Notes under the pieces: model-generated
Told to the model about the DNA's origin: nothing
Seen by the model: the letters and a program-made list of their open reading frames with translations, nothing else
Database searches by the model: none
Program-made: the position numbers and the translations under genes
Shown: piece by piece, positions 52,079 through 64,000 of the stretch
Numbering within the stretch: the first letter of the stretch is position 1
How the letters are laid out: each line of letters starts with the position of its first letter
NCBI GenBank assembly: GCA_021778805.1
Contig: JAJYBV010000004.1
Coordinates: 1-64,000 of the forward strand
DNA length: 64,000 nucleotides
Direction of reading: 5' to 3'
From: Chloroflexota bacterium
GTDB taxonomy: Bacteria > Chloroflexota > Ktedonobacteria > Ktedonobacterales > JACDGC01

Positions 52079-52253
52079 ACCTATTTTTAAGCTAAAAACT
52101 TCGGGATTTTCGCGCTTTGGTTGCTGAACCATGCGTTTAAGTAGGTGTACTTATTTGTCGCCTGTTCGGCGCCTATTTGCAGGCTGGTGTATGATGGTTA
52201 TGAAGGTCGCTAAAGGGACGATTCGCGACTGGCATGGTAAGGAGACACCAAAA

Positions 52254-55253
52254 ATGACAAAATTTCTATCCACAAAAAATTCTTCTACCCAAAAGACAAC
52301 CTTTTCGTCCAAAACCTATTTTTATGAGGTGAAAACTCGCATGCAACGTTCTCACTCTTTATCGCGCAGCTTCGCCTTCTACATGATTCCAATCATGTCG
52401 TTTCTGGCGATGGCGCTTACCCTTGTCGACCCGACAGGAGCGTTTGCGCGATCTATGCCTAAAATAACCCCCTTGGTAAACCAAATGCCGACGGGCGCTT
52501 GGTCTCAGCTAGGGCCGTTATCGCCGACCATAGGCACTACGATGGTTTCTAATGGTTTCGGCGTTTTGGCGGTAGATCCGACAACAAGCGGTTCTACAAC
52601 AACTATGTATTTGGCCCCAAGTGACGGTGGCCTCTTTAAAACAGCCAATGACGGAACATCATGGTCTTCTGTGATGGATACACTGCCCAGCGGTGTTACC
52701 TGGCCAACATTTACAAGTGTAGTGGTCGATCCGGAAAATCATAACACCGTGTTTGCTATTACTGAATCCGGCTCCAGTTTTCAAGGCATTCTTGAAACTA
52801 CCAACGGCGGCACAAGTTGGACACAGATAACAACATCAGAGTTATTAAACGAAACTGGTGTTATTAAGTTATTTGTCAACCCTTATAACGACCAAGATTT
52901 GTTTGCGTTAGCTACCAATGGCTCCAGCTATGAAGTAATGTATTCCATTAATGGTGGAACCAGCTGGACATCCAGCGCAATTGCCACAACAAATTGGGAA
53001 AGCGGCGCAGCCAATACGCTGGAAGATTTAGCGGTTGGTTTCAGCGGCACGACCAGCGCTTACACCGAGTATTTATACGCGGTTGGGTTTGATCCTAGTG
53101 GTGGTAACATTAATGAAGTTGACGTGGCATCGGCAACGGCAACTAATTCTTCAACCACACCAACATGGGCTGCAGCTGCAGCTTCGGATAAAGTTGAGGC
53201 AACATCTGGAACAGTGACAAGCGGCGCGGCAATTGCCCTTGCAGCTTCGGCTCCATCGTCATTGGCCGGTGTGTATGTTTCAGTACAAGCTTCTGCTGCG
53301 CCGGGATTCTATTATTATAATTCCGGTGGTAGCGCTTTTGCTCAGCAGACAATTGCGATTACAACTGTATTTACCGGTATGGCGGTTGACCCGCAGAACC
53401 CGACGATTGTGTATGGCGTAACAAACACTACTGCGCCGTATGTAATTAACGCAGCAACAACGGCAGGTTCGAGCGCTACTTCTATGAATTTGCCCGGAAC
53501 AACAACCGATCGAGAATTGCCGCAGTTCCCAACCTGCGCTTCCGGCACAGATCCGTGCCCGGCAGTGTTTGCGAATGACGGCGGTTTGTTCTACTCATCT
53601 GTTCCGAATGTCGCAACACCGGCAACCTCGGTGTTTGGCCTTTCAGGCGTAGCAGATATTTCATTCGGTTCCGCAAATGGCGCGATTGGCGCAAGCTATG
53701 GCTCCTCACCGGAGTTCTATGGCGTCAGCAACAGTGTTGGTAGTACCAACTATGGCTTGCTGTGGAACGGTTCGACATGGACGATGCCGGATTCATCTTC
53801 GCTTTCTGAGGATTCTATTGCAATCTCTCAGTCGAACAACGCGAAAATTTACTATGCAAATGGCACTGATGTTTATGTCAGCACCAACAGCGGAGCAACT
53901 TTTGGCCCAATTTCTGCCGCACGATCACCATTCGTCGTTGATCCTTCGAATGATTCGCATATTGTTGCATTCAGCACAACCGCGAATGATGTTTGGGAAT
54001 CTACCAATGGTGGTCTTTCCGGAAATAATTCTGCAGTTGGGTTTTCCACGACTTCTATTAGTTTAGACCAAGCAAACAGCGCTGTCGTGTTTGTTGGAGG
54101 ATCTTCGCATCTTTCCGAAGCAACAAACGCCAACGGCTCTTCTGCTGCAACGTATACATCGCTTTCAACTTCTTATACACCGGTTTCAATTGTCGCCGAC
54201 CCGCATGATTCCACCGGAAACACAGCGTATTTTGCGACATCCAGCAGTGTGTATGAAGTAAGCAGCGCAACATCAACACCGGCGTTCACAGCGTTCAGCA
54301 CAACTGGGCTGCCCGCTTCACCGGATATTGCGCAGTTTGGCATGTATTACTCGGGCAACACACCTGTGTTCCTGGCGTTGGCTAGTGGCACTCTTGCCAG
54401 CAACGCTTTGTATTACACAACATCGACCACAGGTTCGTGGACAAAATTGACCAGCGGTCTGACTGCAGCGCCAATCAATGGCTTCGCGGTAAATAAAGAC
54501 CACACCGCTATCACGGCGTATACCAAAGGCCGCGGCGCGTGGGTGCTTGTTTTGCCGACAGCCAAAGCGCAGTCGGTCGGTGTGTATGACCCAACTTCAG
54601 GCACATTCTACCTGAATTACACAAACACTTCCGGCAACGCCAACGTTGCTGTACAGTATGGCCCAACAAAATCCACACCGCTGATTGGTGACTGGACGGG
54701 TCAGGGATTCCAAACTGTTGGTGTGTATAATAACGGCGTGTTCTATCTGAAGAACAGCGACACACCGGGCAATGCGGATATCGCTTTCCAGTATGGTCCT
54801 ATCAGCAGCAGCGCAGTTCCGATAGTCGGCGACTGGACGGGTCAGGGTAAGAGCACCGTTGGTGTATATGTCAACGGCACATTCTACCTGAAGAACTCGA
54901 ACGCCGCCGGTAACGCCGATATTACATTCACATTCGGCGCCCCGGGAGATATTCCGGTGGTCGGTGACTGGAGCGGAGCTGGACACACATCTGTTGGTGT
55001 GTATGATCCTACAACCGGCACGTTCTATCTGAAGAACACATTAGCCGCCGGTCTGCCGGATTATACCTTCCAGTACGGCCCTGCAGGCGCAACGCCAATT
55101 GCCGGTGACTGGACTGGCCAAGGCTTCGCAACTGTAGGTGTGTACTACAATAACGTGTTCTACTTAACCAACACAAATGCAGCCGGCAACGCCAGCTCCG
55201 CGTTTATGTATGGCTACAGCGGCACGACTCCGTTAACAGGCAACTACAAGTAG
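52254..55253 (+). CDS. Large secreted beta-propeller (BNR/Vps10-like) protein with C-terminal 47-aa repeats
   Basis: Signal-like segment (FYMIPIMSFLAMALTLVDPTGAFARS), NDGTSW/TNGGTSW/INGGTSW motifs, C-terminal repeats GDWTGQGxxTVGVYxxGxFYLKNSxxxGNAD. Start 52254 (AAGGAG upstream) or 52341. Confidence 0.8.
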   Translation: MTKFLSTKNSSTQKTTFSSKTYFYEVKTRMQRSHSLSRSFAFYMIPIMSFLAMALTLVDPTGAFARSMPKITPLVNQMPTGAWSQLGPLSPTIGTTMVSNGFGVLAVDPTTSGSTTTMYLAPSDGGLFKTANDGTSWSSVMDTLPSGVTWPTFTSVVVDPENHNTVFAITESGSSFQGILETTNGGTSWTQITTSELLNETGVIKLFVNPYNDQDLFALATNGSSYEVMYSINGGTSWTSSAIATTNWESGAANTLEDLAVGFSGTTSAYTEYLYAVGFDPSGGNINEVDVASATATNSSTTPTWAAAAASDKVEATSGTVTSGAAIALAASAPSSLAGVYVSVQASAAPGFYYYNSGGSAFAQQTIAITTVFTGMAVDPQNPTIVYGVTNTTAPYVINAATTAGSSATSMNLPGTTTDRELPQFPTCASGTDPCPAVFANDGGLFYSSVPNVATPATSVFGLSGVADISFGSANGAIGASYGSSPEFYGVSNSVGSTNYGLLWNGSTWTMPDSSSLSEDSIAISQSNNAKIYYANGTDVYVSTNSGATFGPISAARSPFVVDPSNDSHIVAFSTTANDVWESTNGGLSGNNSAVGFSTTSISLDQANSAVVFVGGSSHLSEATNANGSSAATYTSLSTSYTPVSIVADPHDSTGNTAYFATSSSVYEVSSATSTPAFTAFSTTGLPASPDIAQFGMYYSGNTPVFLALASGTLASNALYYTTSTTGSWTKLTSGLTAAPINGFAVNKDHTAITAYTKGRGAWVLVLPTAKAQSVGVYDPTSGTFYLNYTNTSGNANVAVQYGPTKSTPLIGDWTGQGFQTVGVYNNGVFYLKNSDTPGNADIAFQYGPISSSAVPIVGDWTGQGKSTVGVYVNGTFYLKNSNAAGNADITFTFGAPGDIPVVGDWSGAGHTSVGVYDPTTGTFYLKNTLAAGLPDYTFQYGPAGATPIAGDWTGQGFATVGVYYNNVFYLTNTNAAGNASSAFMYGYSGTTPLTGNYK

Positions 55254-57604: not shown

Positions 57605-58215
57605 AAAATTTGGGGGGCGCTTTTGCCACCAATACCGCTCCAAAGCACAAGCGCCGCCACATATCGTTTATTTTAGAGCATACGCCGCGCGGTACACATG
57701 GGGCCATGCAATCCGGTAGGGGCGACCCTTGCGGTCGCCCTTGCCACACGGCAATCAATATTGCCCATCGGAAAATAAAATTAAAAGATAAATTGGGGAC
57801 ACCCCAAAACCCCGCGCAAGAGGCATTCGCCACTTACGAATCCCTGGTGCACCGTGTGGTGTTTCGTTTTATATTAAAAATTATTTGGGGACACCCCAAA
57901 CCCCGCGCAAGGGGCATTCGCCCCTTACGAATCCCCGTTGTACCGTGCGGTGTTTCGTTCTATATTAAAGATAAATTGGGGACACCCCAAAACCCCGCGC
58001 AATGGGCATCCGCCCCTTACGAATCCCCGTTGTACCGTGCGGTGTTTCGTTCTATATTAAAAATTATTTGGGTGGCGCCCGAAACCCCGCGCAATGGGCA
58101 TCCGCCCCTTACGAATCCCCGTTGTACCGTGCGGTGTTTCGTTCTATATTAAAAATTATTTGGTGGCGCGCCAAACCCCGCGCAAGGGGCATTCGCCCCT
58201 TGCGAATCTCCGGCA
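57605..58215 (+). repeat. Composite element (reverse) plus A-family tandem array 4 (5 units)
   Basis: Units from about 57790 to 58210, linked by GTTGTACCGTGCGGTGTTTCGTTCTATATTAAA. Confidence 0.93.
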
Positions 58216-60481: not shown

Positions 60482-60818
60482 TCCGCTAATTGCCGGCGCC
60501 GCTTCATCCTCTTACAGACCTGAGCTTAAAAAGGCAAAAGAGGAAATGGATGGCGCCCCCCGACCCTATCAGGAGGCCTGCTGCCTCCTGATTTTTGTAT
60601 ACTTTGGTTTATAGTGCGGCGCGCGCCGCCTTCGTGATAGAATGATTGCAAGAAGCTTTCCGCTTCTTGTAATAGTTACACAGCGCACAATAATTCTGCG
60701 CCAAAACTCCCATCCAAACTGTGAAAAACTTCTTAATCTCTGCTTTATTATTTCACAGTAAAAAGGCTAATAGTTATCTTATAATCAAAGTGATTATTCA
60801 GGCTATAGGGAGACGCCA

Positions 60819-63299
60819 ATGCTTTTGCGTATTTATTCATGGAATTTACATAACAAACAATCCGCTAGCGGCGCCGCGGCGCAGCCTATGCGCTTTGCCG
60901 AACACACCGGCAGCCGAAACGCTTCGGTTTTGCGCATGATTTTTGCCGCCGCCGCAGCGCTGACACTGGCTTTGTCATCATTTATTACTGCTCCTCGCCC
61001 TGCGTTGGCGGCAACTCAAACTTCCGCCGGGCATGTAACCATCATTATTCTCGATATGTCCGGCTCTATGTCGCAAAACGATCCCAATGGTTTGCGCTGT
61101 TCCGCCGCCAACGCCTACATTGACCTTAGCGGATCGGGGGATGAAATTGGCGTCATTGGTTTAGATAGCGGCGCCAATCCGCAGCCGGGTGCGCAAGGTT
61201 TTCAGGCAGCGCAAACTTGGGCTAATCCTGTTGATGTTTCTACGCTCAGCGCCAGAACAGCGCTGCTGCAAACCATCAGCCAAAAATCGCAGAACTGCCG
61301 GCCCGATGCAAACACACCTACATTCGATGCGCTCAGCAAGGCGTATGCTATGCTGCAATCCGCTGCGGCAGGCGGGAAAACCGGCTCGGTCATTCTACTG
61401 ACCGATGGCGCGCCTTACCCATCTGCGCAAAATCAAATACAAGCCATAAACACACAGCTGGTTCCGAAATATCAAGCAAATAACTGGCCGATAGACACTA
61501 TTGCCTTGGGTTCCGACACCGGTTTCCACAGCTTTCTCAGCGGAGTTTCCAATGCGACGAACGGACTTTTTTTTGATGACAGCCATGGTCCCGTTCCCGG
61601 CGTTTCACCTCTGAATTTAGCCGATTTTTTTGTATCTATCTTTAAGATTAGAAACGGCCGCTCCGTTGGGCCAACCATTGCCCCGGTTATGATTAACGGG
61701 TCTTTGCAGCATGATTTTAGTGTTGGAACCTTCGTCAGCCATTTAGATATTGTTGCCATTAAAGATACGCCTTCTATGCAAGTAACAGTAACGGCTCCCG
61801 ATGGCCAAACCATCCCTCCGGCGCTGCCCGGCGCGTTTATTGCCAACGATCCGCATTTTGCCATCTTTTCTATCGATCAGCCGCAGTCTGGCGACTGGCG
61901 CGCCAATATACAAGGATCCGGCATGTTTTTAATGGATAGTTTGGTTGTTTCGCCGATTACCGTCAATGTTGCGGCGCCGCAGGCGGGTAAAGCTTTTCCC
62001 TTGGGGCAGCCAATTACCGTTTCCGCGTCGCTGCTGGAAAACGGCGCAACAATCATCGGCTCGAACTACCAAGTAACCGCAACAATTACATACGCCGGCC
62101 GCGGCAGCCACCCGGTTTCATTGGTTTCTCAGCTCAGCGATCCCCAGCGCACGGGTAACTATTCCAACACCGTTACCATACCGCTTACCGATCCTGCGGG
62201 GTCATATCAAGTTACGGTTGCGGCAGAGGCCGCCAGCGAAACGGCTGCGGCGAATTCCGTTGTCGCCACATTTATTCCGTTTCCTACACCCACGCTGCTG
62301 GCTCCGGGATCTTCTCAGCCGACTACCGGACCGATTTCAGACACTGTCATCACATGGGATCCGGCGCTGCGGTTTATATATTCACTGCCCGTCATCGGCT
62401 GGTCTATTGCGGGGTTTCGCCCGGCAGATTTGCCGCTTCAGGGGGCAGCCGCACAGCCGCAGGCTCAGTTAAACGGCGAGACGCTGCTGGGAGGCGCACT
62501 TTACCAAAGCGCAACGGTCACAGGCGCGGCGGTAAACGGCGCGGGCCAATCTACTGCGGTTACAATTCTTCCAAATGGCTCCGGGCGGTTTTTAATGAAT
62601 CTGCCGCAATACGCGACGGGAAAATTCACCGTAACGTTAACGGCGCGGGGAGCGTTTTCCGATACGTTCGGCCAAGCGGTGAGCAAAACAACTGTTGTCA
62701 ACGTATTAATTGCGGCGCCAACCTGGCAAGATGAACTGCGCGCATGGGCGCTTACCCTGCTGTATTTGCTGCTGCTGGGCTTATTTACGGTCTTTTTCAT
62801 CTATGGGCCAATTAATTATTTGGTTCGCGCCAAGCCCGGCTCCGGAGATCGGTTAGTAGATGTTGGAGCTAACCTGCGGGCGCAAAATCGTTCACAACTA
62901 AGCGCCGGTGTTCCGATACGCCGAAAAAAAATGTCACTAAGCCGGTATTTTTCACCGAATATAGTGCCGGCAAGCGAAATGGGGCTGCCCGAAAACTTGC
63001 AATTTGTGTTTCGGCGCGGCAATGAAGTTGCTGTGCGGCTGGTTCGCTCAAAAAATTCTGCGGCAACATGGCAGATAGACGGCAGAAATCTTGGCGCGGA
63101 AACGCAAACTATTCTGCCGGGCATGCAATTAACTTATACGGAAAGCGGCGCTTCAACAAAATTAAAATTTGAACAGGATCGCAACGCGGCCTTTACATCC
63201 GGTGGCTCCGGCGGTATCGGCGCGCGTTTGCAAGATGCGGGCGCGGCCGTTGGCGCGCGGGACTTTATCCGCCGCCGCAAAGGTCTTCGCAATGACTGA
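60819..63299 (+). CDS. Secreted/membrane-anchored VWA-domain protein
   Basis: Signal segment then VTIIILDMSGSMSQNDPNG (MIDAS), VILLTDGAPYPS; C-terminal TM (LTLLYLLLLGLFTVFFIYGPINYLV) and basic cytoplasmic-like tail. Confidence 0.88.
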   Translation: MLLRIYSWNLHNKQSASGAAAQPMRFAEHTGSRNASVLRMIFAAAAALTLALSSFITAPRPALAATQTSAGHVTIIILDMSGSMSQNDPNGLRCSAANAYIDLSGSGDEIGVIGLDSGANPQPGAQGFQAAQTWANPVDVSTLSARTALLQTISQKSQNCRPDANTPTFDALSKAYAMLQSAAAGGKTGSVILLTDGAPYPSAQNQIQAINTQLVPKYQANNWPIDTIALGSDTGFHSFLSGVSNATNGLFFDDSHGPVPGVSPLNLADFFVSIFKIRNGRSVGPTIAPVMINGSLQHDFSVGTFVSHLDIVAIKDTPSMQVTVTAPDGQTIPPALPGAFIANDPHFAIFSIDQPQSGDWRANIQGSGMFLMDSLVVSPITVNVAAPQAGKAFPLGQPITVSASLLENGATIIGSNYQVTATITYAGRGSHPVSLVSQLSDPQRTGNYSNTVTIPLTDPAGSYQVTVAAEAASETAAANSVVATFIPFPTPTLLAPGSSQPTTGPISDTVITWDPALRFIYSLPVIGWSIAGFRPADLPLQGAAAQPQAQLNGETLLGGALYQSATVTGAAVNGAGQSTAVTILPNGSGRFLMNLPQYATGKFTVTLTARGAFSDTFGQAVSKTTVVNVLIAAPTWQDELRAWALTLLYLLLLGLFTVFFIYGPINYLVRAKPGSGDRLVDVGANLRAQNRSQLSAGVPIRRKKMSLSRYFSPNIVPASEMGLPENLQFVFRRGNEVAVRLVRSKNSAATWQIDGRNLGAETQTILPGMQLTYTESGASTKLKFEQDRNAAFTSGGSGGIGARLQDAGAAVGARDFIRRRKGLRND

Positions 63300-63475
63300 T
63301 TTTTCAACTGTAGCGCTATCTTCGAGGCTTTTTACTGTTTACACGATGCTGGGCCGCGGCAAAAAAATTGGCTGTGCGCTCACTTTGGCGGGAGGATCCG
63401 GAATAGTTTCGGTTTCTGCGCGCCGGCGAATATGAGAGAACACAAAGCCCGAATATTTAGAGGAGAATAATTTTT

Positions 63476-64000
63476 ATGCAGAACAACACCGTAAAACGCG
63501 AAACATCATCCCTTGCAGCGCAGCGCATCACTCGCCCTGTTTTAAATATATTTATTGGAACCAAAGCTTCTTACGCCGGTTTATGGATTGCAAAATATGA
63601 GCTGCCGTTTCTCAATCGGGCGGATCAAGAGCGCGTGGGCAGTTTATATTTAGATTTAGAGCCGCTTTCTGATGAGATTGATCGCGCGCACTACGACACC
63701 AACGACGCATCGCCGATGATCAAGCAGACATTGCGCTTTCCGGATCTTTCCCAATATGTTACCAGTCTTTCGGAAGAGCAGAAGCATTGGCTGCAAATTA
63801 CCAGCCCGGCCGGAGTTCGTCTGCCGGAATATACGCGCATGGGCGCCGGCGGAATACGGCAGAACGGGTTCGGCGCGGTGTGGTACAATTCACCGATTGT
63901 AGCGCAGCATATCGAGGCGCTCATCAACAACATCTGCGCGGTAGACAGCGCGGGCCATGCGCCGGACGCCGATTTAATCACCATCAACATTGTGTGTTTT
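63476..64000 (+). CDS. N-terminal part of a putative Tubulin_2-like (tubulin/FtsZ superfamily) protein, truncated by window end
   Basis: Open frame of 175 codons with SD AGGAG; RPVLNIFIGTKASYAGLWIAKY... GAGGIRQNGFGAVWYNSPIVAQHIEALIN... DLITINIVCF-, the layout seen before the GGGTGSG motif in Tubulin_2 proteins. Not in the ORF track because it runs off the window. Confidence 0.55.
   Translation, partial: MQNNTVKRETSSLAAQRITRPVLNIFIGTKASYAGLWIAKYELPFLNRADQERVGSLYLDLEPLSDEIDRAHYDTNDASPMIKQTLRFPDLSQYVTSLSEEQKHWLQITSPAGVRLPEYTRMGAGGIRQNGFGAVWYNSPIVAQHIEALINNICAVDSAGHAPDADLITINIVCF

Follow-up and report, generated by a model that had tools for sequence, protein, structure and literature searches.

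An FtsZl1/vWA locus of Ktedonobacterales with a probable membrane pseudo-tubulin partner

The window, by which is meant the whole analysed stretch of 64,000 nucleotides (bases 1-64000 of the 70,089-base contig JAJYBV010000004.1, contig C120 of genome G000), closes with a gene for a VWA protein and, on the same strand, the beginning of a tubulin-like gene, TUB. It raises the question of what kind of system these genes encode, and of what might connect a cytoplasmic GTPase of this type with the membrane. Operons of FtsZl1 and vWA genes have been described by Makarova & Koonin 2010 (PMC2875224). The present locus is interpreted, with a confidence that stays a little short of even, as such an FtsZl1 (Tubulin_2)/vWA operon that also includes a further tubulin-type protein, the membrane-anchored partner P3. 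The gene order on the same strand is VWA, TUB, P3 and P4, followed by scpB on the other strand (Table 1).

Table 1. Features of the locus, numbered from the first base of the contig, which is also the first base of the window.
Feature	Position	Strand	Remarks
Intrinsic-terminator-like hairpin	60568..60592	+	Between ftsH and VWA gene; 10-bp stem, then TTTTTG; consensus match only
VWA gene	60819..63299	+	826 aa; GGGAG ribosome-binding site ahead of ATG
N-terminal hydrophobic segment, VWA protein (signal peptide core)	60936..60992	+	Hydropathy; around residue 40
MIDAS motif DMSGSM, VWA domain	61053..61070	+	Residues 79-84; invariant in 12 orthologs
Single C-terminal TM segment, VWA protein	62745..62801	+	Hydropathy; residues 643-661
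TUB gene, 5' part	63476..64000	+	Full gene to contig base 65995, 839 aa
NIFIGTKASYAG, first strand and T1-type loop of GTPase domain	63545..63580	+	Ortholog alignment; AF2 model
GAGGIR motif, TUB	63842..63859	+	Invariant in 12 orthologs
INIVCF strand, TUB	63983..64000	+	Residues 170-175; leads into G-box LGGGTGSG just beyond window edge
P3 gene	66140-68710	+	856 aa; past window end
P4 gene	68698-69252	+	184 aa, about four TM; membrane protein, overlaps P3

The gaps between the first three genes are about 177 bases (VWA-TUB) and about 145 bases (TUB-P3), and VWA-TUB-P3-P4 is regarded as a putative, not proven, single operon. The hairpin between ftsH and the VWA gene has the longest stem among the matches of a promoter and terminator scan of the region, in which the total match count equals the shuffled expectation, and it is the probable upstream border of the operon. 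The position of VWA as the first operon gene is consistent with this strong hairpin-T stretch. An Rfam search gave no match. Two other features of the window lie further upstream. A tandem array at 57780-58213, between an EamA-transporter-like ORF and ftsH, comprises 4.7 copies of a 91-92-base unit (90% matches) with the palindromic core CGCAAGGGGCATTCGCCCCTTGCG, and a 1040-aa secreted-looking protein encoded at 52131-55253 carries C-terminal repeats of the type VGVYDPTSGTFYLNxTN...GDWTGQG.

The VWA protein consists of an N-terminal signal/anchor segment, a VWA domain, a beta-rich extracellular region, one C-terminal TM segment and, in the cytoplasm, a basic tail about 160 aa long. A signal-bearing VWA protein with a DMSGSM MIDAS and one C-terminal TM segment had been described in the earlier note, and the ORF, its hydropathy and the comparison of 12 orthologs are all in agreement with that description. 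The MIDAS pattern DxSxS...T...D is present, and the positions D79, S81, S83, T166/T168 and D196 are all invariant among the orthologs. The match of the protein to Pfam VWA_2 has an E-value of 1e-5 and a score of 26.6 bits, slightly below the 27-bit cut-off. An association of VWA with a MoxR-type ATPase was rejected, as none is seen among the ORFs of the cluster.

The tubulin-like ORF, noted earlier as cut by the window edge, is cut there only, and the contig continues to its natural end. Directly after the INIVCF strand, the full TUB sequence reads LGGGTGSGS, exactly where a G-box had been predicted just past base 64000; the GGGTG(S/T)G box after the hydrophobic strand is present, as evident from INIVCFLGGGTGSGS. 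The GAGGIRQNG element is also genuine, with an invariant core in the alignment of 12 orthologs. Pfam analysis revealed a match of TUB to Tubulin_2 (PF13809) with an E-value of 1.3e-17 and 64.6 bits (cut-off 27), in line with the family call made in the earlier note, while the score to PF00091 is 14.1 bits (cut-off 33) and no FtsZ/tubulin C-terminal domain match was found in Pfam. The AF2 models of TUB and P3 were built on the ortholog L043 and not on the window's own proteins. The L043 TUB ortholog is 70% identical to TUB, and its model (mean pLDDT 69.9) returned only tubulin or FtsZ among the top 50 PDB matches in Foldseek (E 2e-4 to 1e-3), as expected from the tubulin fold proposed earlier. 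The secondary structure of this model displays a coiled-coil middle and a mostly helical C-terminal region, with helices in place of the tubulin C-terminal domain. A PDB sequence search with the TUB and P3 profiles gave nothing significant.

The possibility of TUB being the cell-division FtsZ was rejected on the basis of the missing FtsZ C-terminal domain and of three separate PF00091 (FtsZ-type) genes that the same genome possesses (C92:5685-6164, C87:989-1468 and C133:6079-6558), with which no role in division need be assumed for TUB. The number of PF00091 genes is two or three in close relatives of the same family, and none to two in other Ktedonobacterales families.

The TUB sequence also bears on whether filaments are formed at all. 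TUB and P3 may instead constitute a GTP-regulated signalling or secretion complex devoid of filaments, in which TUB would be the switch, P3 and P4 the membrane parts and VWA an exported or sensing component. The helices that replace the tubulin C-terminal domain, together with T7-type residues that are not conserved in the alignment of TUB orthologs, imply that a classical FtsZ-type polymerisation is not assured. However, the well-studied relatives in the tubulin superfamily polymerise, and both the G-box and the GAGGIR motif are strictly conserved in Ktedonobacterales TUBs. Transport or signalling was also suggested for FtsZl1 by a reviewer of the 2010 paper (PMC2875224). A switch complex of this kind is considered unlikely, though with a share of probability large enough to be reckoned with.

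The interpretation of the locus as an operon with an extra tubulin-type partner depends on P3, for which no Pfam or NCBIfam match was obtained. Weak second Tubulin_2 matches in relatives were located in the gene adjoining TUB, and this prompted the comparison of P3 with TUB. In a comparison of profiles, P3 matches TUB with an E-value of 3.1e-7 and a score of 72.2 (at most 27.2 over 40 block shuffles), and an independent TUB profile of non-Ktedonobacterial Chloroflexota with an E-value of 2.1e-8 and a score of 77.2 (shuffled maximum of 38.6). As these E-values refer to a single comparison, shuffled controls were used, and for both independent TUB sets the similarity lies far above the shuffled and reversed controls. 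Within the GTPase domain, P3 and TUB align colinearly for about 290 columns, from the first strand (RPTIVL) across the G-box region up to the FPRAQAExYCA helix. The secondary structures of the P3 and TUB models agree at 145 of the 158 jointly structured aligned positions (92%). On the other side, the C-terminal halves of the two proteins show only a weak similarity. Eight members of the P3 alignment (A3) match Tubulin_2 singly, the best at 1.2e-4, under the family cut-off; no P3 reaches the PF13809 cut-off, the best of Ktedonobacterales having 24.7 bits against 27. One row of A3, and of the P3 TM survey, is a Bro-N protein (L044 12948-14117); it was left out of the alignment used for the profile comparisons, and made up one of the 14 rows in the input alignment of the P3 model (L043 ortholog).

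The G-box is absent from all 15 aligned P3s, which display IVGxAxSPLL-type sequences in place of GGGTGSG. Hydrophobic segments, usually a TM hairpin, are situated within the coiled-coil region of the P3s, and no TM segments were found in the TUBs. A tubulin-type ancestry of P3 is strongly indicated, and the results indicate that its GTPase domain is a degenerate tubulin-type domain, which has lost the G-box, in a protein that has gained a TM hairpin. Judged from its sequence, P3 is probably a degenerate relative of Tubulin_2, and is not filed as a member of that family. A tubulin fold of P3 is only putative, since none of the 50 best PDB matches of the full-length P3 model (mean pLDDT 68) in Foldseek is a tubulin, and no match has an E-value <0.001. 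The search with the full-length chain was dominated by long coiled coils, and VWA/Rossmann and coiled-coil proteins were returned.

This Foldseek pattern and the scores below the Tubulin_2 cut-off would also suit an FtsZl1/vWA operon of the ordinary kind known from the 2010 paper. P3 would then be an unrelated coiled-coil membrane protein specific to its lineage, with a Rossmann-type N-domain merely resembling the tubulin GTPase domain; according to PMC2875224, FtsZl1 is often adjoined by lineage-specific membrane proteins in which no domain can be recognised, and these are numerous. Such an origin is nevertheless improbable in view of the profile similarity to two TUB sets, the long colinearity that includes the FPRAQAExYCA helix region, and the agreement of secondary structure.

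Of 12 retrieved Ktedonobacterales loci that show all three positions, 11 have the order VWA-TUB-P3. The order is also found on the window's own contig and in additional copies inside a single genome, and loci ending within the cluster show the partial order expected of them. The exception is G005 (L044), where VWA-TUB lie on C35 with a Bro-N gene after them, and P3-P4 on C42, inside a 121-kb contig (L096); the cluster is split and both halves are kept. The 389-aa ORF after TUB in G005 (L044 12948-14117 = L031 3246-4415), which stands where P3 would be expected, was rejected as P3, being a Bro-N (phage antirepressor-type) protein. Among the relatives obtained by protein search, MAGs labelled as Ktedonobacteria, Ktedonobacterales or Chloroflexi predominate, and Ktedonobacter racemifer is one of the others; the host, a soil bacterium, is accordingly of the Ktedonobacteria type within Chloroflexota. 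In Ktedonobacter robiniae (L056:9660-12346), TUB appears divided between two overlapping ORFs of 185 and 751 aa that lie in different frames, due to a frameshift or sequencing error.

Across 41 genomes, TUB and P3 occur together in 13, TUB only in two (G030 and G037, with no P3 detected), P3 only in one and neither in 25 (Fisher P 8e-8); in the sole genome with P3 only, a fragment of TUB lies at the edge of a contig. The trees of TUB and P3 have 9 of 12 splits in common, against a null maximum of 3, and the P3 branches are longer than those of TUB in most lineages. Between the VWA and TUB trees, agreement does not exceed the null maximum; VWA trees are the less concordant ones, and VWA is thus the looser partner. 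The VWA-tubulin neighbourhood, whose conservation the earlier note proposed to check, is conserved in the Ktedonobacterales loci, and the adjacency recurs across Chloroflexota and in Accumulibacter. The pair had also been taken as the unit, and here the claim stands for the linkage and not for the extent, as the pair belongs to a larger unit with P3. A merely shared genomic location, with VWA, TUB and P3 acting separately, would accord with the width of the gaps and with the VWA-TUB tree result, and is very improbable in view of the order kept in second copies and across Ktedonobacterales whose TUB identity falls to about 20%, of the VWA-TUB adjacency outside this order, and of the split halves kept in G005.

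Tubulin_2 genes are present in 29 of 251 sampled Chloroflexota genomes, often adjoining a VWA gene, and in the phylum of the Accumulibacter match 3 of 200 genomes have a match. Three other Chloroflexota lineages possess a TUB-type GTPase together with a tubulin-like protein that lacks the G-box; the latter adjoins TUB in L071 and L078, and in L073 it is encoded on a separate contig. The companions of TUB in L076, L040 and L062 have no tubulin match beyond the first strand, or none at all. Tubulin_2 proteins of 1208-1387 aa, in which a single chain has both an intact GGTG box and TM-like hydrophobic segments, are encoded at L080:3752-7378, L081:8612-12244 and L083:3509-7672. Each adjoins a VWA-type gene, which in L080 and L083 has an HMM match; these single-chain proteins appear to be another route to a membrane-placed tubulin-type protein. 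Altered G-boxes occur in the Tubulin_2 proteins of L039, L041, L079 and L082 (AVGATGSG, FGLTGS; none in L082).

As compared to known systems, the VWA-TUB pair is a further case of the FtsZl1/vWA arrangement and not a new system, and the new element is the probable membrane pseudo-tubulin partner P3. FtsZl1, as described in the main text of PMC2875224, has an N-terminal FtsZ-like domain with GGGTG(S/T)G, a coiled coil and a helical C-terminus, and most often adjoins vWA genes with an intact MIDAS; a membrane-remodelling role was proposed there, and Chloroflexus was already in the 2010 set. TUB resembles FtsZl1 in its score above the PF13809 cut-off, in all these parts and in its vWA neighbour. 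The differences are that a second tubulin-type gene without a G-box and with a TM hairpin is absent from that main text, and that the present cluster has no recognised gene for a protein kinase, OmpA or a P-loop GTPase. Among the later papers examined that cite the 2010 description, none reports a tested function of these operons.

Bacterial FtsZ (PF00091 and FtsZ C-terminal domain) with its FtsA and ZipA anchors belongs to the same superfamily as TUB, and is likewise a soluble polymer-forming GTPase in need of a membrane tether, if TUB polymerises as supposed. However, TUB has no FtsZ/tubulin C-terminal domain and occurs besides the three PF00091 genes of its genome, and the proposed tether P3 is itself of tubulin type. 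The BtubA/BtubB operon of Prosthecobacter with Bklc, as presented in PMC3232192 and PMC5372463, is similar in having two tubulin-type genes and a factor linking filament and membrane. BtubA/B are described there as eukaryotic-type tubulins without TM segments, whereas P3 is divergent and G-box-less, with a TM hairpin of its own.

In the preferred reading, an FtsZl1/vWA operon with P3 as additional partner, TUB is a cytoplasmic GTPase of the tubulin superfamily, in which the G-box is intact and the tail forms a long coiled coil; GTP binding is expected from the motif and the fold, and assembly into polymers is probable. P3 resembles TUB in architecture, with the G-box gone and a TM hairpin in the coiled-coil region, due to which both of its ends should face the cytoplasm. 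It is then most probably a pseudo-GTPase, unable to bind GTP at the G-box site, that pairs with or caps TUB and so keeps the polymers of TUB membrane-bound. The VWA protein, with its domain outside, one TM segment and a basic tail inside, would be an envelope-side client or the ligand-binding part of the complex. Architecture and co-inheritance point to the TUB-P3 pairing and to the VWA contact, and the complex may have a role in envelope or surface organisation. P3 is a better candidate for the membrane link than the VWA-tubulin pair alone. A more far-reaching form is a two-tubulin membrane cytoskeleton, in which a GTP-binding tubulin and its co-inherited, G-box-less TM pseudo-tubulin would form a mixed or capped polymer mechanically linking a cytoplasmic filament to the extracellular VWA domain, the pairing of active and pseudo forms being widespread across Chloroflexota; this form is doubtful.

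If the proposed role holds, P3 would be the missing membrane link for FtsZl1/vWA, and a tubulin-type TM protein lacking a GTP site. The P3-bearing cluster occurs in Ktedonobacter, a cultured filamentous genus, which makes its biochemistry feasible.
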